DNA from: Magnetococcales bacterium DCbin4
GTDB taxonomy: Bacteria; Pseudomonadota; Magnetococcia; Magnetococcales; UBA8363
DNA: 56,827 nt
Assembly: GCA_002753735.1 (NCBI GenBank)
Contig: PEAN01000024.1
Location: 1 to 56,827, forward strand
Direction: 5' to 3'
Below the pieces are notes generated by a model that was not told the DNA's origin, ran no database searches, and saw only the letters and a list, made by a program, of their open reading frames with translations. Positions 44,523-53,020 of this stretch are shown here, one piece after another (position 1 is the stretch's first letter; the number at the start of each line of letters is the position of its first letter). Both the position numbers and the translations under genes were made by a program.

Positions 44523-45434
44523 TCATGGTTGCGGGGCATGCGTTTGAAGTTTGCGGTAAATCCGGTTGTGTCGGTCCAGTGGAAAAAACAACGACTCCAG
44601 TTCCTGGTGGATGTGTTCCGCTTCGCCCAGAACCAGAAACCCCCCTTCATCCAACGAATCGTGAAACTTGCGGAGGATCATTTCCTGACTCGCCGGGGAA
44701 AAATAGATCAGTACGTTGCGGCACAGGATGAGGTCGAAGGTGCCGAAGATGCTGTCGGCAGGGGTGGCGTTTCCGGGGGTGGTCAGGTCGTGGTGGGAAA
44801 ACAGCACCATGCCGCGGATGGTGTCGCATACCTGGTACCGCCCCTCCCGTTCGGTGAAATACCGGTGGAACATCCCCAGTTTGACGGTGTCGAGCCGTTC
44901 CCCGGGATAGATCCCCTTGCGGGCGAACTCCAGGGTATCAGGTTGGATGTCGGTGGCGAAGATATGGCAGGCGCACCCCCGGGTCCGCCCTTGGACCTGG
45001 TCATGGATCAACATGGCGATTGAATAGGCCTCCTCGCCGGAACAACACCCGGCACTCCATACCCGGACCTCCTTTTTTCCCAGGCGTCTTTTGCGATCGA
45101 TGATCTCGGGCAGTACCTGTTGATCGATCAATTCGAAGACGATGGGGTTGCGAAAGAAGGCGCTGACCTCGACGGCCATGAGTTTGATCAGATGCTGACA
45201 TTCTTCGGGATTCTCAATCAGGCAATCCAGGTAGTCCCGCAGGCCGAAGCGGTTGATTTCCGCGATCCGTTCCGCGAGGCGGCGACGCAGCAGATCGGGG
45301 TCATATTGCCCAAGATCGCATCGGGTTGCCGTTCGCACCTGGTTGATGATGGCCGTCAACCAGTGATCGTGGGATGTGTGGCGTGGATCCATTCCCGGCC
45401 TGCAGGGTTCCTGATCGTTATCTGACGTTCCCAT
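44523..45434 (-). CDS. cheR: CheR-type MCP methyltransferase
   Basis: Adds methyl groups from S-adenosylmethionine to receptor glutamates. The 303-residue product has the CheR N-domain (DPDLLRRRLAERI, VEVSAFFRN) and the methyltransferase core with WSAGCCSGEEAYSIAML, FATDIQPDTLEFARKG and FDLILCRNVLIYF. The beta-subdomain loop (RYFTEREGRYQVCDTIRG) is short, as in pentapeptide-independent CheRs. It is the first gene of the leftward cheR-kinase-kinase-NtrC operon. ATG 45434 was chosen; ATG 45392 is possible. No cheB is in the window. Confidence 0.92.
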   Translation of the reverse strand: MGTSDNDQEPCRPGMDPRHTSHDHWLTAIINQVRTATRCDLGQYDPDLLRRRLAERIAEINRFGLRDYLDCLIENPEECQHLIKLMAVEVSAFFRNPIVFELIDQQVLPEIIDRKRRLGKKEVRVWSAGCCSGEEAYSIAMLIHDQVQGRTRGCACHIFATDIQPDTLEFARKGIYPGERLDTVKLGMFHRYFTEREGRYQVCDTIRGMVLFSHHDLTTPGNATPADSIFGTFDLILCRNVLIYFSPASQEMILRKFHDSLDEGGFLVLGEAEHIHQELESLFFPLDRHNRIYRKLQTHAPQP

Positions 45435-45518
45435 CGTATTCCAAACATGAATGCTCAGAAATGGTTTTTCTTCCGGGCCGTTGATTTGTGTCATCAACGA
45501 TGCAGATTTGGCGCAAAA

Positions 45519-45546
45519 GACACATATGGCATGTGCCATATGTGTC
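45519..45546. promoter_or_regulatory. Perfect 12+12 bp palindrome, candidate activator site
   Basis: The left arm is GACACATATGGC and the right arm is GCCATATGTGTC, separated by ATGT. The centre is about 137 bp upstream of the start site predicted from the sigma-54 promoter, a normal distance for NtrC-type enhancers. A half-site-like TGTGTCATCAA also occurs 54 bp to the left, about five helical turns away. Confidence 0.7.
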
Positions 45547-45642
45547 ATCAAGTATGTTCAAGGCTTCGCTGTTTTGTGCGCATATTGTGAATTTAGATAA
45601 CGACTCCAATGTAATACATGTTCGTCTTACGGGTTGGTCATG

Positions 45643-45659: not shown

Positions 45660-45775
45660 ATAACAGGATTTGGATGATAAATATAATTTGTTGATCATAA
45701 AATCAATCATGAAGTGACCGCACCCGGTGCCGATGGCGAATCAGGATCGATGGTGCATGTAGAGGAGGGGAGATC

Positions 45776-46606
45776 ATGAGACGGTTGGTGACTCTGATGT
45801 ATGTGGGGGCCGCGGTGGCGGGTCTGGGGGAGGTGTGGGCGGGGGATGCGCAGCATTCGGCGGCTCAAGGCAGTGGTGGTGCCCATTGGGGATATACGGG
45901 ACCGGAGGGACCGCAACAATGGGGCACGCTGGGTTATCCGGTGTGTGCTTCGGGTCAGAACCAGTCGCCCATCGATATCACTGCGGCAGCAGCGGGCGAC
46001 CTCGATGAGATCGTGTTCAGTTACACCCCGAGTCCGATCCAGGTGAAAAACAATGGCCATACCATCCAGTTCGATTACAAGGGGGGGAGCTTCATCACCG
46101 TGGGGGGGAAACGGTTTGATTTGGCTCAGTTCCATTTCCACAGCCCGAGTGAAAACACGATCCAGGGCAAGGCATTCCCCATGGAGGTTCATCTGGTACA
46201 CAAGAGTGCCGAGGGGGAACTGGCGGTGGTGGGCATCATGATGAATGCCGTGGAACAAAAAGAGAAAGCGGCAGGGGGACATGGAGAAGGCGGTGATGCC
46301 TGGGGGTTGGTTCTGGGGGCGCTGCCCGCTGCCAATGGATTGAATCTGACTTCCGAAACCACCATCGACGCCGCTCAACTGTTGCCCCATGACCGGAGCT
46401 ACTATCATTGGATGGGATCGTTGACCACACCACCCTGTAGCGAGGGGGTGCGGTGGTTTTTGCTGAAGGAACCGGTAGGGGTTGATGCCCGACAGGTGGC
46501 GCGATTCCGCACCATTTTCGACAACAATGCCCGTCCCGTCCAACCCTTGAACGCCAGAAACCTGTATCTCAAAGAGGTCGGTGGTGGTTCGGGCAAGGGA
46601 CATTGA
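45776..46606 (+). CDS. Periplasmic alpha-class carbonic anhydrase
   Basis: Converts CO2 and bicarbonate. The 276-residue product has a Sec signal peptide ending around VWAG, the entry [20 protein letters not shown], zinc ligands H120 and H122 in [10 protein letters not shown] and H139 in MEVHLVH, and the [13 protein letters not shown] substrate pocket. These are the full alpha-CA signatures, so an active periplasmic zinc enzyme is expected. ATG 45776 follows GGAGGGGAG. A His/Gly-rich insertion ([11 protein letters not shown]) occurs near residue 165. It overlaps or abuts the chemoreceptor gene and probably shares the sigma-54 promoter. Confidence 0.95.
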
Positions 46607-46632
46607 AGAGGGTTTTCGTGAAGGGGGATACG

Positions 46633-48387
46633 ATGAATGTTCTTGAAAACATGAAGTTGCGCACCCAAATCCTGGGGCTGGTGGCGGTATTGATTGTTTT
46701 GATGATTGGTTTGGCGGGCTATGGGATTGTGCAGATGGGGGTGATCGGGGGCGAGATCAAGGGGGTGGCGGAACAGGATATGCCCATGACAAAGATAATC
46801 TCAGAGATTACCGCGCATCAATTGGAGCAATCGATCCTGTTTGAGCGGGTGTTCCGTCATGGAGAAGTGATGAGTGCGAGCAAGCGTGCCGCAGATGGAT
46901 TTGAGCATGCGAAAAAAGGGTTTGCCGCATTGAGCGGCCAGGTGGATGAGGAGATCAAAAAGGGGGAAACCCTGGTCGAAGCGGCCATCGGGATGGCGCG
47001 TTCTGCCGATGAACGAAAGGAATTCGAGGCAATCGCGGCGCAGTTGAAGAAGATCGAAACCGAGCATGATGGTTTTGAAAAACATGCCGAGCATGTGTTT
47101 GAACTGTTGCAACATGGGGCGATCCATGAAGCCAACGAAGCGGGTGAGGCGATTGAAAAGGAGGAAGAGGAACTCAACCAGGAGTTGGATGCCTTCATCC
47201 TCAAGGTGGAGGAGTTTACCGAGCAGGCGATGAAACATGCGGAGCATACTGAAACGACCGCGTTTGGCATGATGACGACCTTGACCCTGGTGGGTACGGT
47301 GTTCGGCATTTTGATCGGCGTCATGGTGGTACGATCAATTCTTCGATTGTTGGGATGCGAACCGATTCAGATTCGACGCATGGCTTCCCTGATGGGACAG
47401 GGTGATGTTTCCAGTTCGATCAATGCGATATGTACCCGATCAAATGCTACGGGCGTCCTGGCCGACATGTTGACCATGGCGGAGAATCTGCGGCGGATTG
47501 TGACGGAAACCAAAACCATTTCGGACAACGTGGCGGCGGGAAGCCATGAATTGAACGAAGCGGCCCAGACATTGGCCCAGGGGGCGACCGAACAGGCGGC
47601 TTCGATTGAAGAGACCTCTTCCGCCATGGAGGAGATGGCCTCCAACATTCAAAACAACACCGACAACGCCCAGCAGACGGAAAAACTTTCCTCCCGTGCC
47701 GCCAAGGATGCGAGTGAGGGGGGGAAGGCAGTTGATGAGGCGGTCGTCGCCATGAAGGAGATCGCCACCAAGATTTCCATCATCGAGGAGATCGCCCGGC
47801 AGACCAATCTGTTGGCGTTGAATGCCGCCATCGAGGCGGCGCGGGCGGGGGAACATGGCAAGGGATTCGCGGTGGTGGCCGCCGAGGTGCGCAAATTGGC
47901 GGAACGCAGCCAGACCGCAGCAGGGGAAATCAGTCAACTTTCCGCTTCCAGCGTCCAGGTGGCGGAGCGGGCCGGGGGGATCATCAACACCCTGGTTCCC
48001 GATATTCAGAAGACTTCGGAGCTGGTACAGGAAATTGCCAGTGCCAGTGACGAACAGAACGCGGGGGCGGGACAGGTCAATCAGGCGATTCAACAGTTGG
48101 ACCAGGTGATTCAAAACAATGCCGGGGCATCCGAGGAGATGGCGGCGACGGCGGAACAACTTTCCAGTCAGGCGGAAAGTTTGCAACGGACGATGGCGTT
48201 TTTCAAATTGGACGCTGCCGTATCCCGGACTCCGCCGCGGAAGGTCGCTTCGGGGAAGAAAACATCCCGGGCAGCAGCGCCTGCACCCAGTCGTTCACCC
48301 CGCATGATCGCCCCTCCTGCCGCGACGACCGTACCAGCGGTTTCCCATGACAAAGGGCGGGCCGATGATGAATTTGAGAGTTTTTAG
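46633..48387 (+). CDS. Methyl-accepting chemotaxis protein
   Basis: A 584-residue receptor. TM1 is at about residues 12-35, a helical periplasmic domain of about 170 residues follows, then TM2 (about 218-238), a HAMP-like linker ([19 protein letters not shown]) and the signalling domain with the conserved hairpin tip [31 protein letters not shown]. The C-terminus has a flexible Pro/Ala/Arg-rich tail of about 60 residues ending in DDEFESF, which fits the x-[HFYW]-x-x-[HFYW] pattern for a CheR/CheB docking pentapeptide. ATG 46633 is 5 nt behind GGGGG; GTG 46618 is an alternative. It follows the carbonic anhydrase by 26 bp. Confidence 0.93.
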
Positions 48388-48518: not shown

Positions 48519-48968
48519 TTAGCGGCCTTTGTTTTCATTTGAACCTGAAGTGTCCAGAAACGGGTTGTGGAATCTGACCCCTTCCAGTAATCTTCCATGC
48601 TGAAAATCTTCGCTGACCACGATTGCACAGCCAGCCTCTTTGGCGCAGGCCCACAACATGGCATCCCAAAAAGACAGGTTATGATTTTGCACCGCACGGA
48701 GCGCCTTGGTGATTGTGGAAATCCCTGCGGGTTGCACTTGGAATAAAGCCAGCCAGTCCCGCACCTGGTCGGAGGCTTCCGCAATGGGCATTTTGCCTTT
48801 GGCGGTTGCTGCCCGGAAGAATTCTCCCAAAGATTGGAGCATCAACACGCAGTTCTCCGCGACAGCTTGATCCAGCAGCGCCGAAGCAATTGCGTGCTTC
48901 CTGCCCGCCTCGCGGTCCAAGGCATAGATAAGGATGTTGGTGTCAAAGGTGTACCGCTCACCGCTCAT
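48519..48968 (-). CDS. PIN-domain toxin (VapC-like)
   Basis: A 149-residue PIN RNase. The Mg-binding acidic residues are visible: D9 in TFDTNILIYALD, a central E in LGEFFRAA, D in SFWDAMLWACA and E/D in VVSEDF. ATG 48968 overlaps the antitoxin stop region by 11 bp. Free of its antitoxin, such a protein cleaves specific RNAs. A longer frame to 49007 overlaps the antitoxin and has no ribosome site. Confidence 0.9.
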   Translation of the reverse strand: MSGERYTFDTNILIYALDREAGRKHAIASALLDQAVAENCVLMLQSLGEFFRAATAKGKMPIAEASDQVRDWLALFQVQPAGISTITKALRAVQNHNLSFWDAMLWACAKEAGCAIVVSEDFQHGRLLEGVRFHNPFLDTSGSNENKGR

Positions 48969-49206
48969 GGAGTTCATCACGGGAAACCGGTTCTCCTCCC
49001 AGGGCATAGCCCTGCTGCATCCTCATTCGGGTGCGTTCACGGGCTGCTTGCCGTTCTTCGCACAACACCTGTTCACGGGGCAGAGGCATCAGACGGGCAA
49101 TGGGTTGTCCGCGCCGGGTGATGATGATTTCTTCTCCAGCTTCAACTGCTTTGATATAACGAGCCAAATGCTGGTTGGCCTCACTCAGGCTGATTCGTTG
49201 TTCCAT
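48958..49206 (-). CDS. Phd/YefM-type antitoxin
   Basis: An 82-residue antitoxin with the Phd/YefM DNA-binding fold: RISLSEANQHLARYIKAVEAGEEIIITRRGQPIARLMPL. The C-terminus (EERQAARERTRMRMQQGYALGGEPVSRDELHER) is the disordered toxin-binding tail. It is first in the operon and overlaps the PIN toxin start by 11 bp. Confidence 0.92.
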   Translation of the reverse strand: MEQRISLSEANQHLARYIKAVEAGEEIIITRRGQPIARLMPLPREQVLCEERQAARERTRMRMQQGYALGGEPVSRDELHER

Positions 49207-49254: not shown

Positions 49255-49484
49255 TTCCACCAAGGATGTGCAGCGTTTTCCGGCAACACGGTCAAGGTTT
49301 GCGCGAGAAATCCTTTTCTTGATTTTCTGGGTGTCGAGCTATTAATATTTTTTTGTATAGATCAAATTTTAAAATCTCTGTGCCAACCCACATCATCGTA
49401 ATTGACTTGATCTCGACAATAAAGCAACATGAAACCCGTTCGGGAATGGGAAAACGATTGAGGAGAAAAAGGGGGCTTAAGCGC

Positions 49485-50978
49485 ATGTCGGGCACGCAAT
49501 GGTTGGAAATGCTGCGGATGGTTTGGGTGGTGGTCGTGTTTTTGGGGTCTCCACTGGTTGCGCAGGCGGAGGAAGAGACGAAGGCGAACATTCCCCCTGT
49601 GGTCAAGGAAAACGCCCCTGCGGCCCCGATGGAGACCTTTCCCGCGGTGACGCCGGCGGAACCGGAAAAAATTTCGAGAAAAACATTCGATGCCTTAAGC
49701 AAGGAGAGCGCCACCTGTGTCTCCTGCCATATTGAGGACAATCGGAGTTTGTATCAGCAATGGGGCGGCTCCAAACATTACGGGGCCAATGTGGGTTGTT
49801 ATGAATGCCACCGGGCGGAGCAGGGGGATCCCGATGCCTTCATGCACAAAAAATTCCTGATTTCCATCATCGTCAGTCCCAAGGATTGTGGACGGTGCCA
49901 CGAACGGGAAACCAGGGAATTCACCCAGAGCATCCATGCCCGGGCGGCGGACATCAAGGAGAGTCCCGCCTACACCCTGGCGACCACGGTTCAGGGGATG
50001 CCTGATGAATCAATGTCTGCGGCAGGAAAACATGGCTGTCTTCAGTGTCATGGTTCCGAGGTCAAGGTCAAATCCAGCGGCAAGCTGGAGGCGACGACCT
50101 GGCCGAACAGTGGCATTGGCCGCATCAATCCGGATGGTTCCCGGGGGGCCTGTACCGCCTGTCATCAGCGGCATGAATTTTCCCAGATTCAGGCCCGGCG
50201 TCCCGAAGCCTGCGGCAAGTGCCATCGGGGTCCCGCCCATCCGCAAAAAGAGATTTATGATGAATCCAAACATGGCATCAATTTTTACGCCAATCTGGAT
50301 CGGATGAATCTGCAATCACCCAAATGGATCCCCGGCGAGGATTATGATACCGGTCCCACCTGTGCCACCTGTCACATGTCGGCCACTGTCGAATCCCCTT
50401 TGACCCATGATGTGAGTCATCGCATCAGTTGGAACCTCAAGACGCCTGTTTCCCATAAGATGGGTGAGGGGCCTGAAAAATCGGAAGTTTCATGGAAGGA
50501 GAATCGCAAACGGATGCAGGAGGTGTGTATTTCCTGCCATACCGAGACCCTCGTCGAAAATTTCTATCAGCAGTATGATAACGTCGTTGTCCTGTACAAC
50601 AACAAGTTTGCCCAGCCGGCCCAGGAGGTGATGGACAGTCTGGCGAAATCGGGCTTGCGCTCCCCGGCCAATTTTGACGATCCCATCGAATGGTCCTGGT
50701 TTGAATTGTGGCACCAGGCGGGACGACGCATCCGTCAGGGGGTATCGATGCAGGCGCCTGATTATGTGCAATGGCAAGGGTTCCATGATATTTCACAGTT
50801 GTTCTACACCCGATTCGTCCCCCAGGCGGAAACCTTGATCGCCCAGGCCCGGAGTGCAGGGAAGACGGAGGCTGCCGCTGAAGTCGCCAAGGTGCTGGAT
50901 GCCATCCTTGCCCGTCCCGAACATGCGTGGTTCCGGGGCGGCAAGGGGACGGAACAGGGCGGCAAGGTCGTTCCCTGA
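49485..50978 (+). CDS. Octahaem HAO-like cytochrome c
   Basis: A periplasmic multihaem oxidoreductase of the hydroxylamine-oxidoreductase family. The 497-residue product has a signal peptide (VWVVVVFLGSPLVAQA) and exactly eight CxxCH sites: CVSCH, CYECH, CGRCH, CLQCH, CTACH, CGKCH, CATCH and CISCH. The spacing and the motifs KHYGANVGCYECH and VSPKDCGRCHERETREFTQSIHA are HAO-like. The region after the last haem (NFYQQYDNVVVLYNNKFAQPA) resembles HAO proteins of epsilonproteobacteria that act on nitrite/hydroxylamine reductively. Whether a crosslinking Tyr for haem P460 is present cannot be decided by eye. ATG 49446 is an alternative start. The next gene starts 2 bp after the stop. Confidence 0.87.
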   Translation: MSGTQWLEMLRMVWVVVVFLGSPLVAQAEEETKANIPPVVKENAPAAPMETFPAVTPAEPEKISRKTFDALSKESATCVSCHIEDNRSLYQQWGGSKHYGANVGCYECHRAEQGDPDAFMHKKFLISIIVSPKDCGRCHERETREFTQSIHARAADIKESPAYTLATTVQGMPDESMSAAGKHGCLQCHGSEVKVKSSGKLEATTWPNSGIGRINPDGSRGACTACHQRHEFSQIQARRPEACGKCHRGPAHPQKEIYDESKHGINFYANLDRMNLQSPKWIPGEDYDTGPTCATCHMSATVESPLTHDVSHRISWNLKTPVSHKMGEGPEKSEVSWKENRKRMQEVCISCHTETLVENFYQQYDNVVVLYNNKFAQPAQEVMDSLAKSGLRSPANFDDPIEWSWFELWHQAGRRIRQGVSMQAPDYVQWQGFHDISQLFYTRFVPQAETLIAQARSAGKTEAAAEVAKVLDAILARPEHAWFRGGKGTEQGGKVVP

Positions 50979-50980
50979 CC

Positions 50981-53020
50981 ATGGTGTGGCGTCTGTCGCA
51001 TGTGATCCGGTGGTTGCCGAAACGCCTGGTCGGGGTGATGATCCCCATCGGGTGGGCGGTGGCGTGGTTGCTGAGTTTGGGGGTGGCTTTGGCGGCTCCG
51101 GGAGGGGAGGCCCAGAGTCCCGAAGAGATCAAGCCCATCGTCGTGGATGGCAACACCTCCGACGTTCGTTGTTACGGGTGTCATGGGGAGAAGGGGTTCA
51201 GCGTTCCCCTGGGCGAGGGGGTCCGTTCCAAGCAACGTTCCCTCTACATCGACCGGGAAAAGTTGCAAAACAGTGTCCATGGCAAACGGTTGTGCGTTGA
51301 ATGCCATCGTGACATCACCCTGATCCCCCATCGGTTGAAGGAAAAGGGGGAGGTGGATTGTGTCCGCTGCCACAGCGATCTGCACCGCAAGGGGTGGGGC
51401 CGCATGCAGGGGCATGATCCGGTGGTGTTGGACAAGGTGGTGCAAAACATCGCCTCCTATATGGAATCGGTCCATGGCCAGCCGCGCAAGGATGGTTCCG
51501 GCAAGTTGAACGCCGGTTGTCCCGACTGCCATGAAGGACATACCATCGCTGCCAAGGGGACCCCCGAACGGGAGGAGTTCCGTCAGTCCACTCCGGTGGT
51601 GTGTGGCCGCTGCCATCAGGAGCAGTTGCGTTTGTATGAAAATTCGGTTCACGGTGCGCAGGTATTGCGCTTTGGCAATACCAAGGCGGCGGTCTGTGCC
51701 GATTGTCATACCTCACATAAAATTTCATCCCCCCATCAAGATCCCGCACGGTTGGTGATCACCAAGAGTTGTGGCAACTGTCATCAGGATTCCTACGAAA
51801 CCTATGCCAAGACCTACCATGGGCAGGTCAATGTTTTGGGATACGCCCATACCGCAAAATGTTTCGATTGCCATTCGGCCCATTCCAACACCCGTGCTAC
51901 CAGTCCCGATTCCCCTGTTTCAGGAGCGAACCGCGAAAAAACCTGCAAAAAATGTCATGCCGGGGTCTCTCCGGGATTCCTGACCTTTCTTCCTCATGGC
52001 AACTCCCATGATTTTGACCGGTATCCTGAATTGTGGTTGGCGTCAAAATTCATGATTTTATTGCTGGTGGGGGTGTTTCTGTTCTTCTGGACCCATTCGG
52101 CGTTGTGGTTTTATCGTGAATCGCGGGAAAAGGCGGCGGGATTGTTGCCGGTCATCCATGAATCGCCCGCAGTGGCGGGGGATCCCCGGACCTATGTACA
52201 ACGCTTTCCCGCCTTGTGGCGTCTGGCCCATCTGACCTTTGCCCTTTCCATCATGACGTTGGCCTTTACCGGGATGACGGTGTTGTATCCCGATGCCTTC
52301 TGGGCCCCCTGGGTGGCACGTTTCCTGGGTGGGGCGCCGGTGATGGCCATCGCCCATCGGGTGGCGGCGGTCATGTTTTCCCTGGTGTTCTTCGTCCATC
52401 TGGGCGGGGTGTTCTATCGCATTTTCTGGAAGAGCCGCACGACATTTCGTTGGTTCGGCCCGACTTCGCTCGTTCCCAACTGGCAGGATTTGAAGGATTT
52501 CATCGCCATGGTGCGCTGGTTCTTCGGCAAGGGACCGCGACCGGTGTTTGATCATTGGTCTTATTGGGAAAAATTTGACTATTGGGCACCGTTCTGGGGC
52601 ATGTTCATCATCGGTTCCTCGGGGCTGATCCTTTGGTTCCCGAAGGTTGCGGGTGAATTCCTTCCCGGCTGGGTATTCAATGTCGCGACCATCATTCACG
52701 GTGAAGAGGCATTCCTGGCGGTGGTGTTCATCTTTTCGGTCCACTTTTTCAACTGCCATTTCCGTCCGAGCAAATTTCCTCTGGATATCATGATGTTTGT
52801 CGGGCGTATGCCGGTGGATGAATTCAAACATGAACGGCAGGTGGAATATCGGAGGCTTAAGGAAAGTGGCCAACTGGATCGTGTTCTGGTACCTCCCCCC
52901 TCTTCCCGACTGAAATTCTGGTCGCGGGTTTTGGGATTTACCTTGATTACCATTGGCTTGACCTTGTTGTTCATCACCTTGAGCGGGTTTAGCCTGCACT
53001 TGTGGGAAGGAAAACTGTAA
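50981..53020 (+). CDS. Nonahaem c / cytochrome b fusion (CbcL-like quinone oxidoreductase)
   Basis: A 679-residue inner-membrane protein. After a signal/anchor segment (IPIGWAVAWLLSLGVALA), nine CxxCH sites occur between residues 60 and 330: CYGCH, CVECH, CVRCH, CPDCH, CGRCH, CADCH, CGNCH, CFDCH and CKKCH. From residue 355 there are about five membrane helices with His pairs of a FdnI/HydC-type cytochrome b (WRLAHLTFALSIMTLAFTG, MAIAHRVAAVMFSLVFFVHLGG, TIIHGEEAFLAVVFIFSVHFFN). Geobacter CbcL has the same nine-haem plus diheme-b layout. It should pass electrons between quinone and the octahaem partner encoded 2 bp upstream. Confidence 0.88.
   Translation: MVWRLSHVIRWLPKRLVGVMIPIGWAVAWLLSLGVALAAPGGEAQSPEEIKPIVVDGNTSDVRCYGCHGEKGFSVPLGEGVRSKQRSLYIDREKLQNSVHGKRLCVECHRDITLIPHRLKEKGEVDCVRCHSDLHRKGWGRMQGHDPVVLDKVVQNIASYMESVHGQPRKDGSGKLNAGCPDCHEGHTIAAKGTPEREEFRQSTPVVCGRCHQEQLRLYENSVHGAQVLRFGNTKAAVCADCHTSHKISSPHQDPARLVITKSCGNCHQDSYETYAKTYHGQVNVLGYAHTAKCFDCHSAHSNTRATSPDSPVSGANREKTCKKCHAGVSPGFLTFLPHGNSHDFDRYPELWLASKFMILLLVGVFLFFWTHSALWFYRESREKAAGLLPVIHESPAVAGDPRTYVQRFPALWRLAHLTFALSIMTLAFTGMTVLYPDAFWAPWVARFLGGAPVMAIAHRVAAVMFSLVFFVHLGGVFYRIFWKSRTTFRWFGPTSLVPNWQDLKDFIAMVRWFFGKGPRPVFDHWSYWEKFDYWAPFWGMFIIGSSGLILWFPKVAGEFLPGWVFNVATIIHGEEAFLAVVFIFSVHFFNCHFRPSKFPLDIMMFVGRMPVDEFKHERQVEYRRLKESGQLDRVLVPPPSSRLKFWSRVLGFTLITIGLTLLFITLSGFSLHLWEGKL

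Follow-up and report, generated by a model that had tools for sequence, protein, structure and literature searches.

A conserved carbonic anhydrase-chemoreceptor gene pair in Magnetococcales that may allow enzyme-assisted sensing of carbon dioxide or acidity

A gene for a predicted alpha-carbonic anhydrase lies directly upstream of a chemoreceptor gene in a 56,827-nucleotide stretch of DNA from Magnetococcales bacterium DCbin4 (hereafter the window; contig C129 of a 4.5-Mb genome). The original prediction, made from the sequence alone, had placed the two genes 26 bp apart and proposed that they are probably co-expressed and that the enzyme could make or buffer the signal of the receptor (bicarbonate, CO2 or protons). 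Domain searches upheld both gene calls (Table 1): the first protein matched Pfam Carb_anhydrase (PF00194) over residues 45-264 of 276 (E 1.9e-41; 142.8 bits against a cut-off of 27), and the second carries an MCPsignal domain (PF00015; E 3e-35; 122 bits).

Table 1. Features of the anhydrase-receptor locus, in window coordinates.
Feature	Position	Strand	Details and basis
CheR receptor methyltransferase, divergent neighbour	44523-45551	-	Longest ORF
28-bp imperfect palindrome, GACACATATGGCATGTGCCATATGTGTC	45519-45546	.	Between divergent cheR and anhydrase
Sigma-70-like promoter match, ATAACA-16-TATAAT (10/12)	45660-45687	+	Upstream of anhydrase; not above shuffle expectation
Secreted alpha-carbonic anhydrase gene (predicted)	45776-46606	+	276 aa; Pfam, invariant active-site columns, solved relatives
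Shine-Dalgarno-like AAGGGGG before receptor ATG	46621-46627	+	Read directly
Transmembrane chemoreceptor, monomodular four-helix-bundle (4HB) sensor, C-terminal EFESF	46633-48387	+	584 aa; MCPsignal, AlphaFold model
Periplasmic 4HB ligand domain of receptor	46726-47262	+	Approximately residues 32-210; AlphaFold model, composition

The anhydrase reading frame is intact and its domain full length. Its zinc ligands (H120, H122 and H139), proton-shuttle H95 (the His64 equivalent), E126 (Glu106) and T217/T218 (Thr199) are invariant in all 12 aligned homologues, and these residues line up with those of solved enzymes, the best of which (the bacterial carbonic anhydrases 4c3t and 6eki) cover the whole domain. 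The N terminus is hydrophobic and, judged by eye, signal-peptide-like, with an AXA-like end (...VWA-GD), so that the enzyme is apparently exported to the periplasm. It has the full active site and fold family of bacterial alpha-carbonic anhydrases such as 4c3t, 6eki and 1kop but, unlike them, belongs to a Magnetococcales enzyme group largely tied to a receptor gene, which in the enzyme tree is separate from a second alpha-anhydrase lineage that occurs in these genomes too. The source genome has a second alpha-anhydrase at a contig end (L002, G000:C56:9-725), and another contig carries, also at its end, a C-terminal piece of an anhydrase (L003, G000:C79:1-114); these are perhaps one gene split by assembly.

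The receptor sensor is predicted to be a Tar-like four-helix bundle. It scores just under the Pfam cut-offs for TarH (22.9 versus 25.2 bits) and 4HB_MCP_1 (24.9 versus 27 bits), and 11 of 13 aligned family members match each of these profiles at E up to 0.1. AlphaFold predicts four long helices (pLDDT 82), and among chemoreceptor structures the model best matches those of Vc1313, Tar and Tsr (TMt 0.70-0.77), with Foldseek E-values that are weak (above 0.01) because helix bundles are generic; searched by sequence, the sensor had no significant match among solved structures. The overall plan is that of Escherichia coli Tar and Tsr: a monomodular 4HB periplasmic sensor, two transmembrane helices and an MCP signalling domain. 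Unlike Tar and Tsr, the window receptor falls below the TarH cut-off, is histidine-rich and is encoded beside a carbonic anhydrase. Its nearest relatives in named genomes are from Magnetococcales metagenome-assembled genomes (MAGs), with weaker matches in one Desulfobacterales and one Actinomycetota MAG.

The sensor is acidic (18.5% Glu) and contains 5.6% His. Receptors in paired loci have 8-15 histidines per ~178 sensor residues, versus mostly 4-10 in distant relatives, and H165/H168 (a HEAH motif opening helix 4) and H205 occur much more often in the paired receptors than in the others. The correspondence is incomplete: the window receptor has N168 in place of H168, and among the unpaired receptors of the same clade, G002 has lost all three histidines while G026 and G007 retain them. 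Separately, the receptor C terminus (...DDEFESF, 48367-48384) resembles the CheR-tethering pentapeptide xFxxF; several other relatives end similarly, and such an end is absent in G020, G026 and G014:C46. The neighbouring CheR may serve the window receptor.

The spacing between the two genes was as predicted, with 26 bp separating the anhydrase stop (46604-46606) from the receptor ATG. An alternative start at TTG 46603, which would overlap the anhydrase stop, is less favoured because homologues align from the ATG and AAGGGGG lies just before it. No terminator-like site was seen between the genes, and from their spacing, common strand and conservation we infer that they are co-transcribed. Upstream of the anhydrase, inspection by eye gave no convincing sigma-28- or sigma-54-type promoter. 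TGGCAC/GTGCCA repeats resembling the palindrome in Table 1 occur in the cheR-anhydrase/receptor interval of four related genomes (L058, L059, L071 and L072; five with the window) and were not seen in the upstream regions of G020, G040, G014 or G026. The palindrome is a possible operator for both directions; the TGGCAC repeats were rejected as a sigma-54 promoter, as their spacing does not fit. The true cheR start is probably an ATG near 45392.

We surveyed 48 genomes of the order by profile searches with the enzyme and the sensor, which recovered about 20 full alpha-anhydrase genes and 10 receptors of the window clade. Seven of the 10 receptors have a same-clade anhydrase directly upstream on the same strand, in six genomes of five families (the window, G006, G022, G020:C160, G040, G014:C46 and G014:C117), with gaps of about 20-65 bp. 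One pair, G014:C117 (L062 5100-6786), has two tandem anhydrase genes and one receptor. Enzyme and receptor trees recover the same groupings (window, G006 and G022; G040 and G020), with many deeper branches weakly supported. The surroundings of the seven pairs are of at least four different kinds: cheR lies alongside in the window, G006 and G022, in the first two together with a hybrid kinase; a LuxR-type regulator, read from the upstream sequence, precedes the pairs of G020 and G040; G014:C46 has another regulator; and efflux proteins are near G014:C117. Conservation across families and in differing neighbourhoods supports both the co-expression and the functional link of the original prediction. 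A coincidence peculiar to this strain, which that prediction had named as one of two points that would together count against it, is ruled out because the seven pairs recur across five families and in different neighbourhoods.

Could the two genes nevertheless be functionless neighbours inherited from a common ancestor? A single ancestral event may lie behind all seven pairs. Yet the pair has been retained while sensor domains diverged to 35-73% identity and while the surroundings changed. With 38 receptors in the window genome and an assumed ~4,100 genes, the assumed probability is 0.9% per placement, so that about 0.2 chance placements are expected among about 20 alpha-anhydrase genes, against seven observed; the corresponding binomial probability (about 3e-10 if pairs are independent) overstates their independence because the genomes are related. 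The breadth of conserved pairs already makes chance neighbours unlikely, and we consider this explanation very improbable. The link is probably selected, although not obligatory.

Receptors and enzymes of these clades also occur apart. In G007, of the same genus as the window, the receptor sensor domain is 83% identical and the adjacent anhydrase is reduced to a relic lying in the cheR-receptor interval (L071, about 2099 down to 1970, minus strand; MGMAAAAMLGLGEVRAENAQRSAGQSRGVHWLKASGVHGKGH*), in which the start of the anhydrase is joined to its last residues and the middle is deleted. Clade receptors in G002 (beside cheR, which also flanks the clade receptor in G006, G007 and G022) and G026 (beside a LuxR-type gene) likewise have no adjacent anhydrase. 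An alpha-anhydrase of a different lineage is present elsewhere in the genomes of G007 and G002; G026 has no alpha-anhydrase and three beta-anhydrases. As receptors persist without the enzyme in these three genomes, the receptor is not strictly dependent on an adjacent enzyme. Conversely, same-clade anhydrases without a neighbouring receptor are found at G014:C31, G020:C148 and in G009.

The main rival explanation is that the two genes are useful in the same setting and share only their regulation. Here both would serve life at the oxic-anoxic boundary, the anhydrase supplying or trapping inorganic carbon for autotrophy and the receptor sensing an unrelated ligand such as an amino or organic acid, and the need for both under one regulator would keep them linked. 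The receptors that persist without the enzyme fit this account, as does the conserved palindrome, which suggests shared regulation in cheR-type loci. In G006, G022 and G040, moreover, the linked enzyme is the only alpha-anhydrase of the genome and may therefore do a general periplasmic job. Harder to reconcile with it are two observations: the pair remains adjacent across neighbourhoods of at least four kinds, and no member of the other alpha-anhydrase lineage in these genomes was found beside a receptor. We regard co-regulation alone as a real possibility.

A different kind of coupling would have the anhydrase act as an accessory sensory subunit that docks on the receptor, with the binding of CO2 or bicarbonate to the enzyme being what is read. 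Sugar-binding proteins dock on Tar or Trg in this manner, and in E. coli receptors of this 4HB fold take binding proteins as partners; such a complex would suit the conserved pairing, the agreement between the two trees and the tandem enzyme copies. Survival of the G007 receptor after loss of its enzyme speaks against it, and carbonic anhydrase makes no large movement on binding. Docking seems improbable.

The reading that we tentatively favour, at a little under even confidence, is that the genes form a co-transcribed unit that couples inorganic carbon, by way of CO2 hydration in the periplasm, to a receptor responsive to pH or bicarbonate. The secreted anhydrase would let CO2, HCO3- and H+ equilibrate rapidly in the periplasm and would link the pH there to the inorganic carbon outside. 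The Tar-like receptor would read an enzyme product, most likely local pH and in second place bicarbonate, and would thereby report inorganic carbon, so that the cell could steer along gradients of CO2/inorganic carbon or pH. Here we infer both the response to a product and which product it is. Uncatalysed CO2 hydration takes seconds, longer than the comparison time of a swimming cell. The stricter proposal of a dedicated CO2-taxis module, a genetically encoded, enzyme-coupled receptor that senses CO2 only through the proton or bicarbonate signal made by its partner anhydrase, appears rather unlikely. Direct functional coupling of some form, whether by product sensing or docking, is in our judgement slightly more likely than not, and the conservation of the pair suggests that the enzyme may help cells to sense carbon dioxide or acidity.

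Product sensing would fit the His/Glu-rich sensor and also the behaviour of Tar and Tsr, which share the fold and sense pH through the periplasmic domain (PMC4063634; Tar responses also in PMC9600550). In its favour are the seven pairs, their varied surroundings, the matching trees, the tandem anhydrases and the histidine enrichment. Against it stand the receptors without enzyme (G007, G002 and G026), the same-clade enzymes without receptor, the histidine richness also seen in unpaired relatives, the wide occurrence of the 4HB family without anhydrase, and the finding that H. pylori does not require urease for acid sensing (PMC5245789).

Outside the order, alpha-anhydrase was present in 49 of 350 sampled Pseudomonadota genomes, and no receptor lay within 1.5 kb at the 17-18 loci inspected, ruling out a universal pairing of alpha-anhydrase and chemoreceptor genes. 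More distant 4HB receptor relatives, including that of Desulfobacterales L083, likewise had no anhydrase alongside. Within the order, none of the 48 genomes contains RuBisCO, which rules out a RuBisCO link of the pair; cultured members use the reverse TCA cycle for CO2 fixation (PMC6783814), so inorganic carbon matters to these bacteria.

Each protein is of a known kind; the literature searchable here, with incomplete coverage, yielded no report of the pairing as a conserved unit. To our knowledge, known chemoreceptors bind their ligand directly or via a binding protein. A near parallel is Helicobacter pylori, in which urease makes bicarbonate, shifts pH and alters the stimulus of TlpA, TlpB and TlpD; we know of no genetic linkage of the window kind between these receptors and urease. 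Attraction to bicarbonate is reported to act through TlpA (PMC5245789), whose sensor is of the dCache type (PMC8406319), whereas that of the window receptor is predicted to be 4HB. If our reading is right, a receptor retained next to an enzyme that generates or equilibrates its stimulus would represent a distinct design for sensing, and magnetotactic cocci, whose swimming is guided by oxygen and magnetic fields, would gain an inorganic-carbon or pH cue. Little is understood of how bacteria navigate by CO2 and bicarbonate, and the pair is a two-gene unit that could be moved into E. coli for testing.

Directly 3' of the receptor, the window encodes a PIN toxin and Phd/YefM antitoxin pair (48519-49206, minus strand), and two multihaem cytochrome genes lie at 49353-53020; the second also encodes a membrane part of the cytochrome b561 type.
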